The translations under genes were made by a program, and so were the position numbers. Shown here piece after piece: positions 40,591-51,272 of a stretch of 64,000 bases of DNA. Location of the stretch: positions 1 to 64,000 of the forward strand of contig NZ_JAFKFW010000030.1 of NCBI RefSeq assembly GCF_017308015.1. Direction: 5' to 3'. Position 1 is the stretch's first letter. Each line of letters starts with the position of its first letter. This DNA comes from Allobosea sp. (GTDB lineage Bacteria > Pseudomonadota > Alphaproteobacteria > Rhizobiales > Beijerinckiaceae). Under the pieces are notes generated by a model. The model ran no database searches and was not told where the DNA came from. It worked only from the letters and a program-made list of their open reading frames with translations.

Positions 40591-40593
40591 GAG

Positions 40594-41478
40594 CTATCCG
40601 ATCTGGTCTCCGCCACCGCTCCAGCGAAGATGATGCTTCATAAGCTCCGCAGCATCGGAATGCTGTCCGGTCTCTAGCAGATCGAGCAGTTTTAGGTGCT
40701 CCCGAGCATGTTTTTCCACCTGCAGATCGGTGATGAAGCTGTATGCGAACAGGCGACGGAGTCGGTTGAGGCGCTTTAATGTCTCCAACAGTACCGCGTT
40801 CCCCGAGCACTCGGCGACGGCCTCATGAATCTCGCATCCGAAGCGAAAAAGCTCCGGAGGGGTGAAGCGGCCGGGGTTTTCGAGCAGGCGCTGCTGGTGC
40901 TCTCGCACAGGTACCATGAGATCGGCGCGCCATTGGAAAGCGGGTTCGAGAATGCCGCCGGGCTCGATCATCATGCGCAACCTGCCGGTTTCAGCGTAAG
41001 ATCGCGCGCTGTTGAGTGTCTGGGTGAAGCGCCAACCATAACCACGCGAACGTTCGATCCAACCCTCCGAAGCAATCCGGTCCAATAACCTTAAGACCGC
41101 CGCGCGTTTCAGTTCGTAGCGCCGCATGAGTTCGGCTTCGCTGACGACGTCCGGGAGTGCGCCGTTCAAGCGATCCCGTGCAATTCTCAGATAGTGAGCC
41201 TCGCTCTCGTCATCCGCACTCCCCAGCGCTTCGAGCGCAGTTGCGGTGTCGAGCTCATCAACCAGAACGAAGCCCTTGTTCGGGACAGCCTCGGCAATTC
41301 CCTTGGTCACCAGGATTTGCATCGCGCTATGAACCGGTCCGCGAGAGACTCCGAGGCGATTGGCGAAGCGGTGGGGAAACAGCCGCTCGCCACGGCGAAT
41401 GTTGTCGCTTCGCGCGATCTGGATGATTTGCCCGACCAGTTCCAATGTCTTCGGCGAAACCTTTAAATCTGCGCTCAT
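40594..41478 (-). CDS. GntR-family regulator with two winged-helix domains and FCD domain
   Basis: 294 residues, about 60-70 longer than a usual FadR/FCD regulator. First helix-turn-helix unit, about 8-75: IRRGERLFPHRFANRLGVSR then GPVHSAMQILVTKGIAEAV, ending in a wing (PNKGFVLV). A second similar unit, about 93-155: LNGALPDVVSEAELMRRYEL then KRAAVLRLLDRIASEGWI and wing RSRGYGWRF. From about 160 the all-helical FCD effector domain follows (metal/ligand histidines in IHEAVAE and REHLKLLDLLETG). Divergent to the catabolic operon, with palindromes between, so it is very probably that operon's repressor. Duplication by tandem fusion is inference. Confidence 0.82.
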   Translation of the reverse strand: MSADLKVSPKTLELVGQIIQIARSDNIRRGERLFPHRFANRLGVSRGPVHSAMQILVTKGIAEAVPNKGFVLVDELDTATALEALGSADDESEAHYLRIARDRLNGALPDVVSEAELMRRYELKRAAVLRLLDRIASEGWIERSRGYGWRFTQTLNSARSYAETGRLRMMIEPGGILEPAFQWRADLMVPVREHQQRLLENPGRFTPPELFRFGCEIHEAVAECSGNAVLLETLKRLNRLRRLFAYSFITDLQVEKHAREHLKLLDLLETGQHSDAAELMKHHLRWSGGGDQIG

Positions 41479-41528
41479 ATCTGCTCGCCCAAGCCAGTTT
41501 GGCCTCTGATACCATATCCTGACGTCTC

Positions 41529-41554
41529 ATTGACAAACGCTCGTCAATTTGTCA
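41529..41554. promoter_or_regulatory. Overlapping palindromes in the gntR/catabolic-operon divergent promoter
   Basis: TGACAAA (41531-41537) pairs with TTTGTCA (41548-41554), 10 bases apart; within it ATTGAC (41529-41534) pairs with GTCAAT (41543-41548), 8 bases apart. The 185-base divergent gap is AT-rich around it. Likely operator for the adjacent GntR protein. Confidence 0.55.
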
Positions 41555-41664
41555 TTTTCGGCTACAAATAACAAAAATAACCCGGAACGGCAGAGTGACA
41601 ATCCGAGGCACGGAAAAGCTCTCGCGGGTGGAAGTGGAACACCGATGATCGGGGCAGTCAGTCG

Positions 41665-43620
41665 ATGACCACTTTTGAGATTGGGCGTCGCGTTCTGTTC
41701 TTGTCATGTGATCCCGAGTGCGTCAGGCGTCAGCTTGACGGTGGAGACCTGTCTCTCGACGACTGCCGCCCGTTGCGCTCCGAAATCTCGACTGACGAAA
41801 TTACGCCGATCCCGTCACTAGCGTTCTTCGACGAACGTCTGGCATCCCATGCTCATATCGGTTTCAGGGCCGGAGACGACAATCCGATCGGGTTAGGAGC
41901 ACTCGAGAGCGGCGGCTTCTCCACGATTGTCGCCGGGAGCCGATACGGCAAGGGATCCTCCCGCGAGCACGCCCCGGTTGCCGAGCGCATGGCCGGTATC
42001 AGGCTCGTGATCGCGCAAAGCTTCGAGCGGATCTACCGTCAGAACGCCGACAATGTCGGATTGTTTACGTCGACCGATTTTTCCTTGATCGGGCGGATTC
42101 AAGCCGGCGAGGCGATCTCTGTCGACGAATTGCTGGTTGGGCGAGACGCGCTCGCACAGTCCATTCTCCGCGCCGGAGGTCTGCTTGGCTACGGGCGGCA
42201 ACAGCTTGCTCCCATCGAGGCGGTGGAGGTTCCGTCTGACCTTGCTCCACGCACGCTCTTTGAGAAGATCGTGCATCGCCATGCGATCAGGACGATGGAC
42301 ACGCCGGCAGTCAGGGAAATCGGCGACAGCGGCTTCGTGCGGGCCGATATCCGATTTATCCACGACATCTACACGGCCATGGCCCGGCACATGCTCCACC
42401 GCGAGTTCGGGCAGGCGCTCAGTCTGAGCGATCCGTCATCGATCCTGGTTTTCGAGGATCACTATTCGTATACTCATCTGAGCCCGGCACATCGTCATCT
42501 CATGCCGCAGATCCGAGAGCTGTCGGCTGCGCATCGTGCATTCGTCGAGGAGCATGGCCTGCGCCATCATGGCTATCTGAAGGGCGGGCCGGGCTCGGAG
42601 GGCATCTCTCATGCCCTGATGGCTGAGCGCTACGCGTTGCCGGGAGAACTGATCGCCGGCACTGATTCCCACACGCCTCATTCGGGCGCCCTTGGATGCG
42701 TCGCCTTCGGGGTGGGAACAACGGATATCGCCAACAGCTTCGTTACTGGCGCTGTCCGGATGGCAATGCCCGAAAGCATCCTGATCTGGCTGGAGGGAGA
42801 CAGGCCACGTGGCCTGACCGCCAAGGATGTCGTGCTGCACTTGCTGGCGTTGCCTTCGATCCGGTCGGGCGCAGGCGTGGGCCGGGCCTTCGAGTTCGCA
42901 GGCCCGGCCATTGCCGGAATGTCGGTCGACGAGCGGGCCACGCTGACGAACATGGTCGCTGAATTGGGCGGGTTCGCGGGGCTGGTCGCGCCGGATGACG
43001 AGACGGCGCGCTTCATCCGCGAGCGCAGAGGCTTCGATTTCGTCGTCGAGGATTGGATGCGAAGCGATCCGGGCGCCCATTATGCGGAGCGCATTGTCCT
43101 GGATGTTTCCGCCATGGCGCCGATGGTGGCGAAGCCGGGAGATCCCGGCAATGGCATCGACCTGTCGACGCTGACGACGCCTGTGACGATCGATATCGCC
43201 TATGGCGGTTCGTGCACGGCCGGGAAGCGTGAAGACTTCGACAACTACCACGAGGTTCTCGCCTGGGCGGCTGCCAGGGGAATGAAGGTGGCGCCAGGCG
43301 TCACTCTGATCCTGCAGTTCGGAACCATCGATGTTCGCGACTACTGCAAGGCGAAAGGATATCTCGACGCCTTCCGTGCCGTTGGCGCTGAGCTCATGCA
43401 GCCGGCCTGCGGCGCATGTGCGAATTGCGGTCCTGGCTCTTCGACTACGCGCGATCAGGTGACGATTTCAGCGATCAACCGCAATTTTTCCGGCCGTTCG
43501 GGCCCTGGTCAGGTTTGGCTGGCGAGTCCTTTCACCGTCGCGGCCAGCGCAATCGCAGGCAAGATCGCCAGCTTCGACGATATCAGGGCCCGCCCCCCAA
43601 GCGGGCCTGAAACACATTGA
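41665..43620 (+). CDS. Aconitase/isopropylmalate-isomerase-type dehydratase, fused LeuD-LeuC order
   Basis: 651-residue single-chain hydro-lyase. The small swivel domain comes first (1-190), with GSRYGKGSSREHAPVAERMA (91-110) and IAQSFERIYRQNADNVGL. The large domain (about 196-651) has GTDSHTPHSGALGCVAFGVG (332-351), first cluster cysteine in GSCTAGKREDF (C517) and the pair in PACGAC (C582, C585), which would hold a 4Fe-4S cluster. Isopropylmalate isomerase normally has two separate chains, and most fused aconitases place the swivel last. Start: ATG 41665; no strong ribosome-binding site. Would isomerise or dehydrate a 2- or 3-hydroxy di/tricarboxylate. It heads the operon with a CoA-transferase and HMG-CoA-lyase-like enzyme, so its product should be a CoA-activatable branched hydroxyacid. 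Substrate unknown. Confidence 0.85.
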   Translation: MTTFEIGRRVLFLSCDPECVRRQLDGGDLSLDDCRPLRSEISTDEITPIPSLAFFDERLASHAHIGFRAGDDNPIGLGALESGGFSTIVAGSRYGKGSSREHAPVAERMAGIRLVIAQSFERIYRQNADNVGLFTSTDFSLIGRIQAGEAISVDELLVGRDALAQSILRAGGLLGYGRQQLAPIEAVEVPSDLAPRTLFEKIVHRHAIRTMDTPAVREIGDSGFVRADIRFIHDIYTAMARHMLHREFGQALSLSDPSSILVFEDHYSYTHLSPAHRHLMPQIRELSAAHRAFVEEHGLRHHGYLKGGPGSEGISHALMAERYALPGELIAGTDSHTPHSGALGCVAFGVGTTDIANSFVTGAVRMAMPESILIWLEGDRPRGLTAKDVVLHLLALPSIRSGAGVGRAFEFAGPAIAGMSVDERATLTNMVAELGGFAGLVAPDDETARFIRERRGFDFVVEDWMRSDPGAHYAERIVLDVSAMAPMVAKPGDPGNGIDLSTLTTPVTIDIAYGGSCTAGKREDFDNYHEVLAWAAARGMKVAPGVTLILQFGTIDVRDYCKAKGYLDAFRAVGAELMQPACGACANCGPGSSTTRDQVTISAINRNFSGRSGPGQVWLASPFTVAASAIAGKIASFDDIRARPPSGPETH

Positions 43621-43626
43621 CAATTG

Positions 43627-43674
43627 TAGTCCAGTTTTTGTAATTTGAATGGATAAATTACAAAAACTGGACTA
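43627..43674. repeat. Perfect 20-bp inverted repeat after the dehydratase gene
   Basis: 43627-43646 and 43655-43674 are exact reverse complements (arm begins TAGTCCAGTTTTTGTAATT), separated by 8 bases (GAATGGAT). It lies 7 bases past the dehydratase stop and 100 bases before the CoA-transferase start, in an AT-rich pocket of a GC-rich region. In RNA it forms a long hairpin, but no U-run follows the right arm. Candidate operator, attenuator or processing site inside the operon. Confidence 0.85.
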
Positions 43675-43773
43675 GGGCGGTTATGAAAACTACTCCCCGT
43701 GATGAAACGCGGCGAGGCCCGGCGGGAGGCCGTGGTTCGAGCGCTGCTCCCGGCTCGATTAAAGGCAGGTGAT

Positions 43774-44934
43774 ATGAATCCGCTGCCATTGGAGGGCCTG
43801 CGCGTCGTTGAGTTCTCGCAGATGGTCATGGGGCCCTCCTGCGGCATGATCCTCGCCGATCTCGGGGCTGATGTCGTTAAGGTTGAGCCGCCAAAAGGGG
43901 ATCGGACACGTATCTTCAAGGGCGTGGCCTCGGGCTTCTTCAATACCTACAGCCGCAACAAGCGCAGCGTCGTGGTCGATACTGCGACTCCGGAAGGCCG
44001 AGAGACAGCCAGACAGCTTGCTTTGGATGCTGACGTTCTCATCGAGAATTTCCGCCCGGGTCTCCTCGGGCGCTTCGGTCTGGATTATGAAACTTTGGCG
44101 CCGGAAGCTCCCCGGCTCATCTACTGTTCGCTCAAGGGCTACCTGCCCGGCCCTTATGAGAACCGCTTGGCTCTGGACGAGGTCGTTCAGATGATGGGCG
44201 GGCTTGCCTATATGACCGGCCCCCCCGGCAGGCCGATGCGCGCGGGCGCGTCGGTCAACGACATCATGGGCGGGATGTTCGGGGTCATCGCGATCCAGGC
44301 AGCCCTGGCGCAGCGCGAGAAGACAGGCATGGGGACTTACATCCAGAGTGCCCTCTTCGAGAACAACGTCTTTCTCATGGCCCAGGCCATGATGTTTGAA
44401 AGCGTCACAGGGCAGCGCTCTCAACCATGGTCCGTGAAGGAGGCCCCCTGGCCCGTCTACGACCTGTTCGATACCAAGGGCGGCGAGAAGATCTTTGTTT
44501 CGATCGTCGGTGAGGAGCACTGGGTCGGTTTCTGCGAGGCCTTCGATCGAAAAGATTGGTTGAGCGACCCGCGCCTTGCAACCAGTCAGGGGCGCGTCGA
44601 TAACCGCAGTTGGATCATTCCCGAGATCAGGGGCATCATCGCTCGATACGGCAGCGAAGAGATCAGCCAGATTCTGGAACAGCTCGGGCTTCCGTTCGCA
44701 CCGGTAAACACACCCGGCGATCTGTTCGGCGACCCTCATCTCAATGCGTCGGGCGGGTTGATGGACCTGACCACCGATGGCGGTCACCAGGTCAAGACGC
44801 CGGCATTGCCTTTCACGTTCGGCGGCGCGCGTCTGCAAAAGAGGCGCGATCCTCCGAAGATCGGTGAGCACACCGAAGAAGTGCTGGCCGAGCTGATAGC
44901 ACGACGCGCCCGCGCCCACGGCGAGGCGATTTGA
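43774..44934 (+). CDS. CaiB/BaiF-type (class III) CoA-transferase
   Basis: 386-residue cytoplasmic enzyme that moves CoA between carboxylic acids. N-terminal LEGLRVVEFSQMVMGPSCGM, cofactor segment LADLGADVVKVEPPKGDRTR, and the catalytic aspartate D135 in ALDEVVQMMGG; VNDIMGGMFGVIAIQAAL follows. Start: ATG 43774 preceded by AAAGGCAGG; the frame is open upstream but unlike family members. Overlaps the lyase gene (TGATG). In context it should activate the product of the fused dehydratase for cleavage by the lyase, as in itaconate/citramalate-type pathways. Confidence 0.88.
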   Translation: MNPLPLEGLRVVEFSQMVMGPSCGMILADLGADVVKVEPPKGDRTRIFKGVASGFFNTYSRNKRSVVVDTATPEGRETARQLALDADVLIENFRPGLLGRFGLDYETLAPEAPRLIYCSLKGYLPGPYENRLALDEVVQMMGGLAYMTGPPGRPMRAGASVNDIMGGMFGVIAIQAALAQREKTGMGTYIQSALFENNVFLMAQAMMFESVTGQRSQPWSVKEAPWPVYDLFDTKGGEKIFVSIVGEEHWVGFCEAFDRKDWLSDPRLATSQGRVDNRSWIIPEIRGIIARYGSEEISQILEQLGLPFAPVNTPGDLFGDPHLNASGGLMDLTTDGGHQVKTPALPFTFGGARLQKRRDPPKIGEHTEEVLAELIARRARAHGEAI

Positions 44935-45944
44935 TGTCGGTGGAAGTGACCTATCCGACCGATCGGATCGTCCTTCGCGAAGTCGGACTGCGCGACGGCC
45001 TCCAACTCGTCAAAGCATGGCCATCGACGGATCAGAAGCTGGATTGGCTCGCTCGCGAATGCGCGGCCGGCGTCACGCACTTCGAGGTCGGCTCGTTCCT
45101 TCCGGTCGGCCGGTTTCCTCAGTTTGCTGATTTGGCCGGTCTCCTGGAGTTCTTCCGGGATCGGCCGAACCTCCATGCCTCGGCACTTGTGCTGAACGAG
45201 CGCGGCATCGATGACGCGTTCGCGACTGGCATCGCCGAAATTGCCTGCGTGGTCTCGGCGACGGAAGAACACAGCCAGGCGAATATCCGCCGATCGCGTT
45301 CCGCAGCCATCGATCTCGTCCGGGCGGCTGTCGCCAAGCGCAACGCGACAGGACATCCGGCTCTCGTCTCTGTGGGCATCGCGATGGCGTTCGGATGCTC
45401 GATCGCCGGTGACGTCAAGTCCGCGCAGGTCGTCGAGCTCGTCGAACGATGCCTCGAGGCTGGCGCGGATCTGGTCGGAATCGCGGATACGGTTGGCTTT
45501 GCCGGCCCCGATCAGGTGTTCGAACTGTCAAAGGCGGTCCACCAGATCGTTGGCTCAGGTCGCTTCTTCGTTCACCTGCACGACACGCGTGGGATGGCGA
45601 TCGCAAATGCATCCGCCGCGCTCGACGCGGGATGCCGGATTCTGGACGGCTCACTTGGCGGCCTAGGTGGTTGCCCATTCGCGCCCGGTGCGACGGGTAA
45701 CGCAGTTTTCGAGGACCTCGTCTTTCTCTGTGAAAGGAAGGGTTATCGAACGGGCATAGACCTCGATGCTCTGACGGACGTTCGCCGGATCCAGCAAGCT
45801 GCAATGCCGGCGGAGCAGCTCTATGGCGCCATCGCACGCGCTGGCACTCCAAAAAACATTCAATGGGCCAAGGGCGAAAACCGCCAACAACAAGCCCAAG
45901 TCCAGGGAGGAAGTGATGAAGAGACGTACGTTCCTGCAAGGTAG
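44934..45944 (+). CDS. HMG-CoA lyase-family acyl-CoA lyase
   Basis: 336-residue DRE-TIM metallolyase that splits a 3-hydroxyacyl-CoA to a keto acid and acetyl- or acyl-CoA. Catalytic motifs: LREVGLRDGLQLVKAW with Arg/Asp, FVHLHDTRGMAIANA with the metal histidines, and GGLGGCPFAPGATGN with the active-site cysteine, the family signature. Start: ATG 44934 overlapping the CoA-transferase stop. The last 30 residues (GENRQQQAQVQGG) extend beyond the usual end and overlap the next gene by 29 bases. The true substrate may be HMG-CoA, citramalyl-CoA or a homologue. Confidence 0.88.
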   Translation: MSVEVTYPTDRIVLREVGLRDGLQLVKAWPSTDQKLDWLARECAAGVTHFEVGSFLPVGRFPQFADLAGLLEFFRDRPNLHASALVLNERGIDDAFATGIAEIACVVSATEEHSQANIRRSRSAAIDLVRAAVAKRNATGHPALVSVGIAMAFGCSIAGDVKSAQVVELVERCLEAGADLVGIADTVGFAGPDQVFELSKAVHQIVGSGRFFVHLHDTRGMAIANASAALDAGCRILDGSLGGLGGCPFAPGATGNAVFEDLVFLCERKGYRTGIDLDALTDVRRIQQAAMPAEQLYGAIARAGTPKNIQWAKGENRQQQAQVQGGSDEETYVPAR

Positions 45945-47487
45945 CCTGGCTGCGTCTGCCGCCGCGAGCTTGCCCCGGTTCGCGGTTGCTCAGCCGGCGT
46001 CGGTGCTGAAGTTCATTCCTGGCGCTAGTCTTGCGATCCTCGATCCGATCGCGAACACGTCGGCGCCTACGCGTCTCCATGGCTTCATGGTCTATGACAC
46101 GCTGTACGGGCTCGACAGCAATTTCGCGCCTCAGCCTCAAATGGCTGAAGGTCACGAGGTGTCCGCCGACGGTCTGGATTGGACAATCAAGTTGCGCGAC
46201 GGGCTGTTCTTCCATGACGGCGAGCCGGTCCGTGCCAAGGATGTCGTCGCCAGCCTGAATAGATGGAGCAAGCGCGACACATTCGGAAAGACCCTGTTCA
46301 GCAGAACCAACGAGTTGCTCGCAGTCGACGACAAGACGGTGCGCTTCCGCCTGAAGCGTCCCTTCGCGCTCCTGCCGGCAGCGCTGGGTAAGGTCGGCTC
46401 CAACATCGCCGTGATCATGCCGGAGCGCCTTGCTTTGACGGACCCGTCCAAGGCTGTGACCGAAGTCATCGGCAGCGGGCCTTTCTCCTTCGTCGCGAAG
46501 GATTACAGTCCCGGCGCTCTCGTCGCCTACGAGAAATTCAAGAAGTACACGCCCCGCGCCAGCGGCGAGGTCGGCTTCAGCTCCGGCCCGAAGACCGTGC
46601 ATTTCGACCGCGTCGAGTGGCATGTCATCCCGGATGGATCGACCGCGCTCGCCGCGATCCAAAGCGGCGAAATGGACTGGTGGGAGTCCCCCTTGCCGGA
46701 CTTCCTGCCGATCGTGCAGGGCAATCCGAGCATGAAGATCGTGCCGGCCGGCGGTCAGGTCATGTTCCTCCGGCTCAACCATCTTTATCCGCCTTTCAAC
46801 AACCCTGAAATCCGGCGGATCCTGCTTAGCTGCATCGACCGCAAGTCGATCATGCAAGCGGTCGGCGGGGGCGGCGAGTGGCGCGACGATATCGGACTTT
46901 ATCTGGGCTCCATGAAAACGGACGCAGGTATTAAGGAGGCCTTCCGCGGCAGGACCGATTTCGACAACGTCAAGAGCGAATTGGCGGCGGCGGGCTACAA
47001 GGGCGAGCGGATGGTGATGCTCGTCGGGACGGACACTCCCCGCAATCTCGCCGCCAGCCAGGTCGCGGAAAGCACTTTCAAGAAGATGGGGCTGAACGTC
47101 GACTTCCAGTCCCTGGACTGGGGAACCGTCTCGCAGCGCCGCGCAAGCATGGAACCGCCGGAGAAGGGCGGTTGGGCATGCTTCTTCGTCGGGGCGGATT
47201 CCGAGTACTTCCTCGATCCGGCGACGAACTTCCTGGCGCGTGCGAACGGCCGGGACGGCTGGTTCGGTTGGCCTGACAGCTCTCGCATCGAGCAGCTCAC
47301 CGAGGAGTGGTTCAACTCGACCGACGTCGCCGCGCAGAAAGAGATCGCGTCGCAAATCCAGCTCCAAGCCTGGAAAGACATCCCATACGTCCCGATCGGT
47401 GAGGTCCAGGCGCCTGGCTTGGCACGCTCTAATCTCCAGGGCTTCGCGCCGGGCTTCGCCAAGTTCTGGGGCGTGAAACGGACCTAG
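45916..47487 (+). CDS. Peptide/nickel-type ABC substrate-binding protein (family 5), Tat leader
   Basis: 523-residue periplasmic protein. Twin-arginine leader MKRRTFLQGSLAASAAASLP, cleaved near FAVAQ. Family 5 features: MAEGHEVSADGLDWTIKLRD then GLFFHDGEPVRAKDVV, GSGPFSFVAKDY, and WHVIPDGSTALAAIQSGEMD. Start: ATG 45916 with GGGAGG upstream, inside the end of the lyase gene. Operon with DppB/DppC-type permeases. A Tat leader on a family 5 protein means export after folding. Ligand probably an oligopeptide-like or amide-containing compound, by inference. Confidence 0.88.
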   Translation: MKRRTFLQGSLAASAAASLPRFAVAQPASVLKFIPGASLAILDPIANTSAPTRLHGFMVYDTLYGLDSNFAPQPQMAEGHEVSADGLDWTIKLRDGLFFHDGEPVRAKDVVASLNRWSKRDTFGKTLFSRTNELLAVDDKTVRFRLKRPFALLPAALGKVGSNIAVIMPERLALTDPSKAVTEVIGSGPFSFVAKDYSPGALVAYEKFKKYTPRASGEVGFSSGPKTVHFDRVEWHVIPDGSTALAAIQSGEMDWWESPLPDFLPIVQGNPSMKIVPAGGQVMFLRLNHLYPPFNNPEIRRILLSCIDRKSIMQAVGGGGEWRDDIGLYLGSMKTDAGIKEAFRGRTDFDNVKSELAAAGYKGERMVMLVGTDTPRNLAASQVAESTFKKMGLNVDFQSLDWGTVSQRRASMEPPEKGGWACFFVGADSEYFLDPATNFLARANGRDGWFGWPDSSRIEQLTEEWFNSTDVAAQKEIASQIQLQAWKDIPYVPIGEVQAPGLARSNLQGFAPGFAKFWGVKRT

Positions 47488-47523
47488 TCCGTCGCAACAC
47501 AGTGATAACGGGCTCCTCGCGAG

Positions 47524-48465
47524 ATGATGTTCTATATTGGGAAGAGATGCCTTTCCACGATCCCGGTGATGCTGATCGTGGCAGTGCTGATCTTCGGCCT
47601 GCTTTACATCACACCGGGTGATCCCGCTCTCATGATCGCCGGCGATCAGGCAACGCCGGCGGTCGTGGAGCGCATACGCCAGCAGCTTGGCCTGGATTTG
47701 CCGATCTACGTCCGCTTCGGACACTGGCTCTGGGATGTTCTGCGAGGAGACTTCGGGAAGTCCGTTCTCAGCGGCGCGCCCGTGAGCAATCTGATCGCCC
47801 AGCGCATTCAGCCGACCGTCTCGCTGATGCTTGCGACCCTCGTCATCTCGGTGAGCGTCGCCGTGCCGCTGGGCGTTCTCTCTGCGTGGAAACGAGGCTC
47901 GTTAATTGATCGAGCCGTCATGATCTTGTGCGTCGGCGGGTTCTCGCTGCCGGTTTTCGTCACCGGGTACCTTCTCGCCTACACATTCGGTCTGCAGTTG
48001 TCATGGCTTCCCGTTCAGGGTTACGCACGCATCGAGAACGGCGTCCTGCCATGGCTCCGCGGGATCATCCTTCCGTCTCTCGCTCTGAGTCTGGTCTATA
48101 TTTCGCTCATCGCCCGCATCACGCGCGCAACAATGCTTGAGACGATGTCGCGGGACTATATCCGCACGGCCAGGGCAAAAGGTGTCGCTGATCGGTCGCT
48201 TCTGTTCGGGCACGCGCTCAAGAATGCGGCCGTTCCGATCGTGACGGTAGTGGGCACAGGCGTGGCCCTGCTCATCGGCGGTTCGGTCGTAGCCGAAAGC
48301 GTCTTCGCCCTCCCGGGGCTTGGGCGTCTGACGATCGATGCGATCATGGGGCGGGACTACCCTGTCATCCAGGCCGTCGTCCTGATTTTCTCAGCGAGCT
48401 ACGTCTTCGTGAATCTCATCGTCGATCTGCTCTACACGGTGTTCGATCCGAGGATCAGCTATTGA
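47524..48465 (+). CDS. Peptide-type ABC transporter permease (DppB-like)
   Basis: 313-residue permease. N-terminal helix MMFYIGKRCLSTIPVMLIVA and the large periplasmic loop ITPGDPALMIAGDQATPAVV are typical of DppB/OppB. Coupling loop ETMSRDYIRTARAKGVADRS then HALKNAAVPIVTVVG. Two adjacent ATGs; the first is used here. Next gene overlaps by a few bases at the level of start choice. Confidence 0.9.
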   Translation: MMFYIGKRCLSTIPVMLIVAVLIFGLLYITPGDPALMIAGDQATPAVVERIRQQLGLDLPIYVRFGHWLWDVLRGDFGKSVLSGAPVSNLIAQRIQPTVSLMLATLVISVSVAVPLGVLSAWKRGSLIDRAVMILCVGGFSLPVFVTGYLLAYTFGLQLSWLPVQGYARIENGVLPWLRGIILPSLALSLVYISLIARITRATMLETMSRDYIRTARAKGVADRSLLFGHALKNAAVPIVTVVGTGVALLIGGSVVAESVFALPGLGRLTIDAIMGRDYPVIQAVVLIFSASYVFVNLIVDLLYTVFDPRISY

Positions 48466-48467
48466 CC

Positions 48468-49334
48468 ATGACCCTCCCCCTGGCGGCTCGGCGCACCATG
48501 GGCAGCCGATTGCTCCGCTATATGAGCCGCAACACGCTGATCGCATTTCCCAGCGCGCTGCTCGTCGTCTTGGCCTTGATCGCAATCTTCGCGCCGTTCC
48601 TGGGAACCGTCGATCCCGCGCAGCTCAACCCCGCCAATCGACTGAAGCCACCATCGGCCGAGTTCTGGTTCGGTACCGATATGCTCGGCCGCGACATCTA
48701 TTCGCGCGTGATCTACGGCAGCCGGGTGTCTCTGATCGTGGGCCTGTCGGTCGCCTTTTTCGCGTCCGTGTGCGGCGTGATCATCGGGACCATTTCGGGG
48801 TTCGTTCGCAGGTTCGACGCGATCATCATGCGCATCATGGATGGAATGATGTCCATTCCCTCGATCTTGCTGGCGATCGCGATCGTCGCGCTGATCCGAG
48901 GGTCCCTTCTGACCGTGATCGTCGCCATAACGGTCGCCGAGATCCCACGGACATCGCGCCTCGTGCGCAGCGTGGTTCTGTCGATCCGCGAAGAACCTTA
49001 CATCGATGCCGCTATCGTGGCTGGAGCCAGCACGAGCCGGATTGCGATTAGGCACATCTTTCCGAACACCGTCGCGCCGCTATCCGTGCAGGCGACCTAT
49101 GTCTGCGCGGCGGCCCTGATCGCGGAGTCGATCCTCTCCTTCATCGGAGCAGGCCTTCCTCCCATCATTCCAAGCTGGGGTAACATTATCGCCGATGCCC
49201 GGACATTCTGGCAGATCCGGCCGACGATGCTGCTTTTTCCGGCGCTCTTCCTGTCGCTCTGCGTGCTTAGCGTGAATCTGCTCGGCGACGGCCTGAGGGA
49301 AGCGCTCGACCCGAGAATGGCGAAAGACCTGTAG
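48468..49334 (+). CDS. Peptide-type ABC transporter permease (DppC-like)
   Basis: 288-residue partner permease with the N-terminal OppC_N segment (LVVLALIAIFAPFLGTVDPA), FWFGTDMLGRDIYSRVIYGS and coupling loop SIREEPYIDAAIVAGASTSR, then HIFPNTVAPLSVQATY. Start: ATG 48468, three bases after the dppB-like stop; a TTG inside that stop is less likely. No DppD or DppF ATPase gene follows, so the importer must borrow an ATPase from elsewhere. Confidence 0.9.
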   Translation: MTLPLAARRTMGSRLLRYMSRNTLIAFPSALLVVLALIAIFAPFLGTVDPAQLNPANRLKPPSAEFWFGTDMLGRDIYSRVIYGSRVSLIVGLSVAFFASVCGVIIGTISGFVRRFDAIIMRIMDGMMSIPSILLAIAIVALIRGSLLTVIVAITVAEIPRTSRLVRSVVLSIREEPYIDAAIVAGASTSRIAIRHIFPNTVAPLSVQATYVCAAALIAESILSFIGAGLPPIIPSWGNIIADARTFWQIRPTMLLFPALFLSLCVLSVNLLGDGLREALDPRMAKDL

Positions 49335-49377
49335 GTCGCAAACCCGAAGCCGAAGCTTCCAGCTCAGGAGACGCTCC

Positions 49378-50628
49378 ATGTCCCGTATCGCCCGCCGCGA
49401 TCTCACGTCGGTTCTGACGCAGGACCAGGTCGTGTTGCCGAAGCCCGAAGATCAGCTGAGATGGACAACCGCCGAGAAGTTCGTCGCGCACCGGAACATG
49501 CACCATCTGTTTCCGCGGGATGTCATCTCGGCGGGGGAGCATGTTCGTCCGCTTGAAACGGCGGCGAACATCGATGTCAGCTACACCTACCAAGGCAAGC
49601 CCCTGACGCTCGACGGCTACTTCGATGACAACCAGGCGACCGGATTGATCATGCTGAAGGGCGGCAAGATCGTCCTGGAGAAATATGCCCATGGCAACGA
49701 CGCCTCGACGCGTTGGGCGTCGCGCTCGATGGCCAAGTCCTTCACGTCGACGCTGGTCGGGGCCGCCATCCAGGATGGCGCGATCGATGCCGTGGACGAT
49801 CCTGTCTCGAAGTATGTGCCAGAGCTGAAAGACAGCCTCTACGATGGCGTCAGCTTGCGCCAAGTCCTCCAGATGGTCTCGGGCGTGCCCTTTATCGAAG
49901 ACTACAAAGACCCCAATGCCGACGTGTATGCGCTCCAGGCGTGCACCGTCAGGCGTGAAATCGGCTCCTTTCTTCGCCTGCTCAACAAGGTGGCCAATCG
50001 TGTGCCGAAGCAGAGGACTCCCCCCGGCAGCGTCTTTTATTATTCGTCTCTGGATTCCATCCTGTGCGGCATCGTCGTAGAACGGGCTACAGGAAAGCGC
50101 CCGGCAGCCTACCTCTCGGAGAAGATCTGGAAGCCGTTCGGCATGGAAGCCGATGGTTTCTGGAACACGGAAGCTGATGGCGGCACGACGTTCACGGCGT
50201 CGGGTATAGGAGCGACCTTGCGTGATTATGCGCGCTTTGGGCAGTTCATTCTCGAAGGCGGCTCGATCGGAACAACGCAGGTCCTGCCGTCCTGGTGGCT
50301 TTCGGAAGCGACCAAACCCTCCGAGGCCTCGCTGAAGGAACGCGCACCATATGGTTTTCAATGGTGGCTCCATGTTGCCCAAGACGTCAACTCGGTTCGC
50401 GCGGGAGCCGTCGATCCAGGCACGCCCTTCGGCGACCCGGTGCCGTTGCGCGGAGCTGGTTCGATGTTCTACGCACTCGGCAATGCCGGGCAGTCGATTT
50501 CGATTAATTCGACCGAAGGGATCGTCATCGTGAAATGGGCGGCCTGGAGCGATAGCCAGGGGCCGAACGGCCGTGGTCGTCATGCCGACGCTACTCTGTT
50601 TGCAGCACTGATGGATGCAGTTGCTTAG
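49378..50628 (+). CDS. Serine hydrolase of the class C beta-lactamase/NylB-like fold
   Basis: 416 residues, no signal peptide, so cytoplasmic. Catalytic SxxK motif S117-M-A-K120 in WASRSMAKSFTSTLVG; general-base tyrosine in VFYYSSLDSILCG (Y221/Y222); later YGFQWWLH and RGAGSMFYALGNAGQ near the third motif position. The layout resembles 6-aminohexanoate-dimer hydrolase (NylB) and esterase EstB rather than an antibiotic-resistance enzyme. 43 bases after dppC, same strand. In this operon it probably cleaves an amide or ester bond of the imported compound. Substrate unknown. Start: ATG 49378 preceded by AGGAGACGCTCC. Confidence 0.85.
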   Translation: MSRIARRDLTSVLTQDQVVLPKPEDQLRWTTAEKFVAHRNMHHLFPRDVISAGEHVRPLETAANIDVSYTYQGKPLTLDGYFDDNQATGLIMLKGGKIVLEKYAHGNDASTRWASRSMAKSFTSTLVGAAIQDGAIDAVDDPVSKYVPELKDSLYDGVSLRQVLQMVSGVPFIEDYKDPNADVYALQACTVRREIGSFLRLLNKVANRVPKQRTPPGSVFYYSSLDSILCGIVVERATGKRPAAYLSEKIWKPFGMEADGFWNTEADGGTTFTASGIGATLRDYARFGQFILEGGSIGTTQVLPSWWLSEATKPSEASLKERAPYGFQWWLHVAQDVNSVRAGAVDPGTPFGDPVPLRGAGSMFYALGNAGQSISINSTEGIVIVKWAAWSDSQGPNGRGRHADATLFAALMDAVA

Positions 50629-51272
50629 ACGCCAGCAAGGAGGCCGCTGGGGTGCAAGCAACCCCAATCTGGATCGTAAGCGATCTGTCGACGTACGCTG
50701 GGCCAATTCCAGACGTTGCGAGATCGCCAGATTGCAGACATCGATCGGTCGATAGCGCGCCTCGCCGTTAGGGCTTTCACGACGAACTCATCGACGAAAG
50801 CCCTGCCAGGTGATTGGAGCGATCTACCTGGAAGTTGCGCCCGCGTTGGCTGAAGGCTTCCGAAAACGTTCGAAGACCCGGAACCGCCGGCGCAGGGCCT
50901 GCGACAAGCCGAAGCTCATCGGTGCAAGGCGACAGAGCCCACCTTGCAAACCCTGCCGCCTCCGGCGGAGCCGGTTGCGTGGGCGATACGCTTTGATACG
51001 CGGCGCGGCGCGTGGCCGATCTATACTTCGGTATAAATCAGCGATGCCTTGGTCCGATTGATCCTGCTCCCTGCGTCGCGCAAACAGAGCACGGTAGCGC
51101 AACAACGGGGCGGTGCCTTCTCGCATCGTAGCGCTTTCCCGCAGGGGAGGGGGCGTCGGCCGCTGGCGTGGCGGTGCCGACCGCGATTTCGTGCGCCTGC
51201 GGTGTCCCGAATGCCGTGCCGGGCCTTGCCCTGAGCAGAAGACGACTTCGAGCGTATCGAAGGAGACGCATC
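50629..51272. other. Intergenic stretch between catabolic operon and next ABC operon
   Basis: About 640 bases without a supported gene; open frames on both strands have biased Arg/Pro composition. It holds GGGCTTTC (50771-50778) and GAAAGCCC (50796-50803), an 8-bp inverted repeat with a 17-base loop that might be a weak terminator, and CTTCGA/TCGAAG (51246-51262) near the next gene. Confidence 0.35.

Follow-up and report, generated by a model that had tools for sequence, protein, structure and literature searches.

A window of Allobosea sp. DNA, comprising the 64,000 nucleotides at positions 1 to 64,000 of contig NZ_JAFKFW010000030.1, carries a cluster of eight genes that, on balance, probably encodes a self-contained route for the catabolism of substituted malic acids. 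Seven plus-strand genes (41665-50628) encode a LeuD-LeuC fusion protein (DC), a class III coenzyme A (CoA)-transferase (CaiB), a lyase related to 3-hydroxy-3-methylglutaryl-CoA (HMG-CoA) lyase (HMGL), a solute-binding protein (SBP), two ABC permeases (PermB and PermC) and a serine hydrolase with an SxxK motif, and a GntR/FCD regulator gene lies divergent from them. The gene families, the catalytic residues, the boundaries of the unit and the co-conservation of DC, CaiB and HMGL, hereafter called the trio, are established from the sequence. The kinds of enzyme are known and their combination is apparently undescribed, as the preliminary description of this DNA had also supposed. Among the papers listed by our searches of the open-access literature, we found no account of benzyl-, isobutyl- or isopropylmalate catabolism by such an enzyme set.

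We infer the substrate, the direction of flow, the CoA donor and the role of the hydrolase as follows. By homology, DC would interconvert 3-R-malate and 2-R-malate, CaiB would add CoA to the acetyl-side carboxylate, with succinyl-CoA the probable donor, and HMGL would cleave 2-R-malyl-CoA to acetyl-CoA and the 2-oxo acid R-CO-COOH. Overall, this scheme would reverse chain elongation of the leucine or homophenylalanine type, with CoA activation added. The R group is most likely benzyl or 4-hydroxybenzyl, as in eucomate-like acids, and less likely methyl or isobutyl/isopropyl. A (hydroxy)phenylpyruvate product could pass to a 4-hydroxyphenylpyruvate dioxygenase that is encoded elsewhere in the host genome, where a single gene scores over the family cut-off. 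In the host, the family-5 importer, with ATPases borrowed from elsewhere, may bring in the acid in ester or amide form, and the cytoplasmic hydrolase may free it from the imported compound. We tentatively suggest that an undescribed route might thus exist by which plant 2-substituted malates (eucomate, 2-benzylmalate, 2-isobutylmalate and their esters) are degraded through reversed leucine-type elongation, with a new lyase subfamily (2-R-malyl-CoA lyase) that would feed homogentisate catabolism when R is 4-hydroxybenzyl.

The proposal draws first on the recurrence of the trio. Of the 80 DC loci surveyed (the best 80 of 288), 14 have genes for both CaiB and HMGL no more than 10 kb from DC. These 14 represent nine named genera: Bosea, Methylobacterium (two loci), Microvirga, Pseudoroseomonas (three loci), Roseomonas, Hydrogenophaga, Azohydromonas, Sphaerotilus and Ralstonia, together with one metagenome-assembled genome each from Acetobacteraceae and Burkholderiales. 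A single reading frame encodes both HMGL and CaiB in L011, L012 and L024 (both domains were confirmed for L012) and again, directly before DC, on a Roseomonas mucosa plasmid (L091). On Caballeronia sp. Sq4a plasmid p1 (L093) the order is HMGL, CaiB, a split dioxygenase gene, an MFS transporter gene and DC. Six further loci of the 80 have a CaiB of 50-52% identity without HMGL. As a separate observation, upstream of DC in L035, L036, L045 and L047, a nearby CaiB of 52% identity, likewise without HMGL, stands together with apparent four-carbon acid-sugar (tetronate) genes, named from reading the sequences.

Co-occurrence extends to genomes in which the genes are unlinked. Thirty DC genomes were selected from the loci that lack a linked HMGL-CaiB pair, most of them large Burkholderiales genomes, with some from outside that order. 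HMGL is present at E<=1e-120 in 19 of these, CaiB follows it at all 19 loci, and only in G531 does DC lie close to HMGL. As a control, an imperfect match in genome size and kinship, 250 Burkholderiales genomes were evenly sampled; 10 of them carry HMGL, five carry DC and three carry both; when the seed is excluded, HMGL occurs in 9 of 249 and both genes in two. The difference between 19/30 and 9/249 (Fisher 2e-15) and the co-occurrence of DC and HMGL inside the control sample without the seed (Fisher p 0.007) are both uncorrected for kinship or genome size. Two of the four DC genomes in that seedless sample carry HMGL, both at most 3 kb from DC. These results support the catabolic unit and the order of isomerization, CoA activation and cleavage envisaged in the preliminary description, and the predicted co-conservation of the fused gene with the lyase was found in the nine genera and in further genomes.

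Comparison of the whole window with a 21.95-kb Bosea robiniae locus (L010) by blastn gave one block, 40591-50703 (10.1 kb), at 89.5% identity, which spans the end of the regulator gene to 75 bases beyond the hydrolase gene. The flanks of that locus (8.9 kb upstream and 2.9 kb downstream) have no blastn match in the window. Because the match is a single block with non-matching flanks, the eight genes seem to form one unit that apparently travels together. DC was found at E<=1e-100 in only two of 149 genomes of a family sample (the host and one other) and is absent at this threshold from the six same-genus genomes listed there, and the block is therefore accessory. The cluster is a real and apparently mobile catabolic unit with a conserved core. 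Its GC content (0.61-0.62 across 40-50 kb) compares with 0.63-0.69 in most of the window, and a second low-GC stretch lies at 18-22 kb.

DC combines Aconitase and Aconitase_C domains with three Fe-S cysteines and a Ser-Arg swivel motif, features that place it in the aconitase/isopropylmalate isomerase superfamily. Fifteen of 16 catalytic positions are identical in all 93 sequence rows, and the remaining position in 92. Its best relative in the PDB is an isopropylmalate/citramalate isomerase, and its scores lie below the cut-offs of the NCBIfam LeuC and LeuD equivalogs (leuC 165.8 versus 560.25; leud 54.8 versus 245.85) and of every other NCBIfam model among the 25 of 26 matches listed. Aconitase or homoaconitase activity was considered and rejected, given that Arg is absent from the swivel loop at the positions we take to hold aconitase R580 and the homoaconitase YLRT motif; the alignment there is gapless, and the correspondence rests on sequence, not on a ligand-bound structure. 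At residue 11 of this loop, 15 of the 16 trio-linked rows have F, H or Y, and the remaining one, Ralstonia L070, has Arg. Five rows with CaiB only have His. Among the 72 rows classed as unlinked, 28 have Arg, and these 28 all come from Burkholderia, Caballeronia, Paraburkholderia or Trinickia. Linkage was judged partly on 1.5-kb flanks, and at least three ‘unlinked’ rows (L167, L168 and L170) are really near HMGL. Because of this Arg, some lone DCs may act on another substrate.

Other relatives of DC were encountered in different settings. Lone DC genes within L018-L089, mostly from Burkholderiales, occur in LysR-DC-MFS or LysR-DC-TctC-RraA units, and most of those in MFS-type units carry the swivel-loop Arg, suggesting a different substrate. 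A homologue of 41% identity on a Streptomyces sp. KN37 plasmid (L092, 4991-11951) lies between LeuA- and LeuB-family genes beside nonribosomal peptide synthetase/polyketide synthase genes and near two crotonyl-CoA carboxylase/reductase genes, possibly as part of an amino-acid or extender-unit elongation cassette. The host genome itself has a separate, unfused LeuC/LeuD-type pair (G000:C35, about 24.1-26.3 kb; L002, L122). The gene after it encodes a methylisocitrate-lyase-like protein that falls short of the prpB cut-off (287.2 against 354.4 bits), and together they make up a second set of hydro-lyase and C-C lyase, here without CoA.

The domain score of CaiB makes it a class III CoA-transferase, and it reaches no substrate-specific NCBIfam model. 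For HMGL, the next match in the host genome is only 28% identical. Both proteins bear on an alternative in which CaiB makes HMG-CoA from 3-hydroxy-3-methylglutarate, HMGL splits this into acetyl-CoA and acetoacetate as in leucine-type catabolism, and DC is a bystander. The best NCBIfam match of CaiB, below its cut-off, is succinate-glutarate CoA-transferase, and solved HMG CoA-transferases rank among its best-matching chains. HMG-CoA lyase is the best family of HMGL, two trio relatives pass the cut-off of that model (L093 with 270.8 and L012 with 283.4), and the HMGL-CaiB pair stands without DC in seven of the nine control genomes that have it. We nonetheless regard this alternative as improbable, because the window HMGL scores 229.1 against a cut-off of 246, compared with 446.9 for a leucine-type lyase, and its motifs match those of the trio group and differ from those of two leucine-type lyases. 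Moreover, DC adjoins the pair in many lineages, and aconitase-type enzymes require an alpha-hydroxy acid.

Clues to the R group of the substituted malate come from genes near the HMGL-CaiB pair. In 19 such loci (L211-L219 and L221-L230, 5.5 to 18 kb each), a 4-hydroxyphenylpyruvate dioxygenase over the family cut-off was found four times. It is the next gene in L222 and one gene away in L219, it lies on the divergent side after LysR in L212, where genes for a VOC-like protein and fumarylacetoacetase come next, and in L229 roughly 3 kb separate it from the upstream CaiB, with a TctC gene and an opposite-strand gene in between. The dioxygenase in the genome with L222 (G535) is additional to another over the cut-off. 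For lineages with such a neighbour, the arrangement hints that the trio product is (hydroxy)phenylpyruvate. Isomerization of benzylmalates has a counterpart in HphCD, the 3-benzylmalate dehydratase of the Nostoc homophenylalanine pathway, as described in the available part of PMC12961565, and eucomate is made by plants (PMC9477820, seen in part). A side observation concerns the Sq4a plasmid p1, where the 4-hydroxyphenylpyruvate dioxygenase (L093, 6250-7367) is split across two frames and is missing from the PLSDB gene table.

A competing possibility is that the trio acts on C5 acids (citraconate, 3-methylmalate or (R)-citramalate) and yields acetyl-CoA and pyruvate, in line with an earlier guess at a citramalate-type substrate. 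The best solved relative of DC fits this idea, and CoA activation followed by citramalyl-CoA cleavage is described for itaconate and (S)-citramalate. According to the available portion of that source (PMC9875883), the Pseudomonas aeruginosa cluster allows P. putida to use itaconate and (S)-citramalate and does not allow use of (R)-citramalate or citraconate, which leaves a niche for a system acting on the latter two. However, pyruvate would give no use for the hydroxyphenylpyruvate dioxygenase near HMGL-CaiB in some relatives, and neither an itaconyl-CoA hydratase nor a CitE-type lyase domain was found among the eight proteins with Pfam. We therefore consider a C5 pathway unlikely; citramalate keeps a place among the candidates, and the neighbouring dioxygenases favour a larger group. 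For the window itself, an aromatic R group is the guess we would put first, and only tentatively. C5 acids are an unlikely second guess, a branched alkyl group a weaker one, and any other group the least likely.

Several observations weigh against trio-based degradation of substituted malates, and against an aromatic R group in particular. In addition to the control genomes in which the pair lacks DC, 66 of the 80 DC loci have no linked HMGL-CaiB pair. No 4-hydroxyphenylpyruvate dioxygenase was found in the 80 DC loci (1.64 Mb), the 14 trio loci included, and the aromatic reading therefore rests on the Burkholderiales relatives. A dioxygenase over the cut-off occurs in 40 of 44 genomes, so its mere presence is uninformative. 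In G995, G1171 and G545 the nearby dioxygenase is the only one in the genome over the cut-off, where it may serve ordinary tyrosine breakdown; with three of the four being sole copies, the aromatic reading is slightly weakened. The window HMGL also sits on a long branch (1.94) and is 40-47% identical to the trio-group members compared, such that its R group may differ from that of its relatives. Lastly, the hydrolase had no match at E<=1e-15 within the stretches covered for the 13 trio loci other than L010.

The SBP and two permeases form an ABC importer of the Dpp/Opp type, for which no ATP-binding subunit is found among the cluster genes by gene calls or Pfam, a point that the preliminary description does not mention; elsewhere the host genome has 39 oligo_HPY matches, 34 of them over the cut-off. 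The hydrolase has the Beta-lactamase domain and SxxK motif of NylB and class C enzymes. No signal peptide or hydrophobic N-terminus was seen, consistent with a cytoplasmic enzyme. Its nearest chain, 8rlj, is cited for PIB-1 in the available part of PMC13269358.

These genes suggest an alternative, the one put forward in the preliminary description, in which the importer and hydrolase define an ester or amide as the substrate and the trio merely finishes the released acid. Both lie inside the block shared with Bosea robiniae, and the SBP, nearest to 8vdx, is similar to proteins that bind peptides and opines; the single paper found to contain the name 8vdx is unrelated. Near the trio in Acetobacteraceae (L014-L017, L024 and L091) there is an SBP of about 50-53% identity, without matches to the two permeases. 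Homologues of the SBP (45%) and hydrolase are adjacent in one other genome, at one of ten hydrolase loci (L220, about 5.5-10 kb), where a long open reading frame without NCBIfam match was also seen. In plants, 2R-benzylmalate and 2R-isobutylmalate are known as glucosyloxybenzyl esters (PMC6385127 and PMC12364843, each available in part). Set against these points, the transporters beside the trio in other relatives are of different kinds, namely MFS (annotated; c4 by similarity), TctC (annotated), and TRAP or SsuABC-like genes named from reading the sequences, a variety that suits a free organic acid. The hydrolase matched in only one of the 14 trio loci, that of Bosea robiniae, so that its expected co-conservation with the fusion failed to appear and import of a peptide-like conjugate stays unproven. 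We find this alternative rather doubtful, and within our own scheme the imported-conjugate step, with the guess that the hydrolase acts on conjugates, is the weakest part, because relatives share the importer genes only in part and no hydrolase match was found at the other 13 trio loci.

The hydrolase was also tried as a member of the conserved core and rejected: an order-level search at 1e-90 matched the host genome only (1/397). At 1e-45 it was found in 11 of 150 genomes including the host, and the other ten loci showed no DC, CaiB or HMGL match within 1.5-kb flanks. On two Variovorax plasmids, at about 7-9.3 kb of L251 and L252, a hydrolase homologue adjoins a CaiB of 32% identity.

Features of the cluster and its regulatory DNA. 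Positions are those of the window.
Feature	Positions	Strand	Basis
GntR/FCD-type regulator, probably of the operon	40594..41478	-	Pfam GntR 42 bits and FCD 53.4 bits, both over cut-off; inside block common to Bosea robiniae
Divergent promoter region, AAATAACAAAAAT and TGACAAA...TTTGTCA inverted repeat	41479..41664		Sequence; alignment with L010
LeuD-LeuC fusion (DC), isopropylmalate-isomerase-like hydro-lyase, swivel domain first	41665..43620	+	Pfam Aconitase_C then Aconitase in a single 651-aa protein
20-bp perfect inverted repeat with 8-base loop, between DC and CaiB	43627..43674		L010 alignment; RNA fold -31 kcal/mol, z -8.9
Class III (CaiB/BaiF) CoA-transferase (CaiB)	43774..44934	+	Pfam CoA_transf_3 372.8 bits, cut-off 23.3
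HMGL-like lyase (HMGL), divergent subfamily	44934..45944	+	Pfam HMGL-like 146 bits; NCBIfam score; motifs
Twin-arginine translocation (TAT)-exported family-5 solute-binding protein (SBP)	45916..47487	+	Pfam SBP_bac_5 222 bits, TAT_signal; 8vdx_A E 3e-147
ABC permease, Opp/DppB type (PermB)	47524..48465	+	Pfam BPD_transp_1 132 bits
ABC permease, Opp/DppC type (PermC); TTG 48462 is an alternative start	48468..49334	+	Pfam BPD_transp_1 91 bits
SxxK serine hydrolase (S117-M-A-K120), NylB/PIB-1-like	49378..50628	+	Pfam Beta-lactamase 128 bits; 8rlj_A E 1e-68; NylB chains E ~1e-25

Gene calls and Pfam bear out the gene set and divergent regulator originally read from this DNA. The tight packing ascribed to it holds at some junctions: the CaiB stop and HMGL start overlap as TGATG (44932-44936), the SBP start codon lies 29 bases within the HMGL tail, and PermB and PermC either overlap by four bases, if PermC starts at TTG 48462, or are separated by two, if it starts at ATG 48468. 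It does not hold between DC and CaiB, which are 153 bases apart, long stem-loop included, if CaiB begins at ATG 43774. This start is preferred over GTG 43699, with the CoA_transf_3 domain beginning at residue 31 of the longer frame. The core of the inverted repeat in this gap, TTTTGTAATTT-N8-AAATTACAAAA, is kept in L010, and one half nearly recurs in the operon promoter. The repeat has no match in Rfam and may represent a second GntR operator or an attenuator. One promoter-like site (41549-41578) lies in the divergent region; the counts of promoter-like (four versus 2.4 expected) and terminator-like sites (five versus 8.9 expected) are not above those of shuffled sequences.

If the proposed pathway is correct, a function would be assigned both to an isomerase annotated on plasmids as ‘aconitase family protein’ and to a lyase subfamily annotated there as ‘hydroxymethylglutaryl-CoA lyase’, which occur in many Alpha- and Betaproteobacteria. 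The module would also provide a bacterial sink for plant alkyl- and benzylmalates; in the tubers of some Gymnadenia, the glucosyloxybenzyl ester glycosides amount to milligrams per gram, according to the accessible part of PMC12364843. Furthermore, an anabolic chain elongation would prove to be reversed by one added CoA-transfer step.

Each part of the cluster has parallels among known systems. DC resembles LeuCD and the methanogen isopropylmalate-citramalate isomerase in fold, Fe-S cysteines and active-site residues, but differs in being one chain with the swivel domain first, in falling below the NCBIfam cut-offs and in having catabolic neighbours. HMGL belongs to the same protein family as the HMG-CoA lyase of leucine degradation and has its catalytic motifs, but departs from it in score and subfamily motifs; the (R)-citramalyl-CoA lyase of Chloroflexus is a precedent within this family. 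The hydrolase shares the beta-lactamase family and SxxK motif with the NylB 6-aminohexanoate-dimer hydrolase and the PIB-1 serine hydrolase, which are only distant relatives.

At the level of pathways, the Ict-Ich-Ccl system for itaconate and citramalate degradation in Pseudomonas, as far as the available text describes it, likewise uses a CoA-transferase and then a C-C lyase to yield acetyl-CoA and a 2-oxo acid. Unlike the cluster, it includes an itaconyl-CoA hydratase step and no isopropylmalate-type isomerase. Its lyase is of the CitE type, and the eight proteins include no such pair of hydratase and lyase. The biosynthetic HphA/HphB/HphCD pathway of Nostoc employs a synthase and a dehydrogenase in place of the CoA-transferase and lyase, and neither a 2-benzylmalate synthase nor a 3-benzylmalate dehydrogenase gene was found by Pfam among the eight cluster proteins. 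HphCD, likened to DC by its partly available description and not by sequence, is an isomerase acting on benzylmalates, and the cluster would thus perform the same chemistry in the opposite direction.

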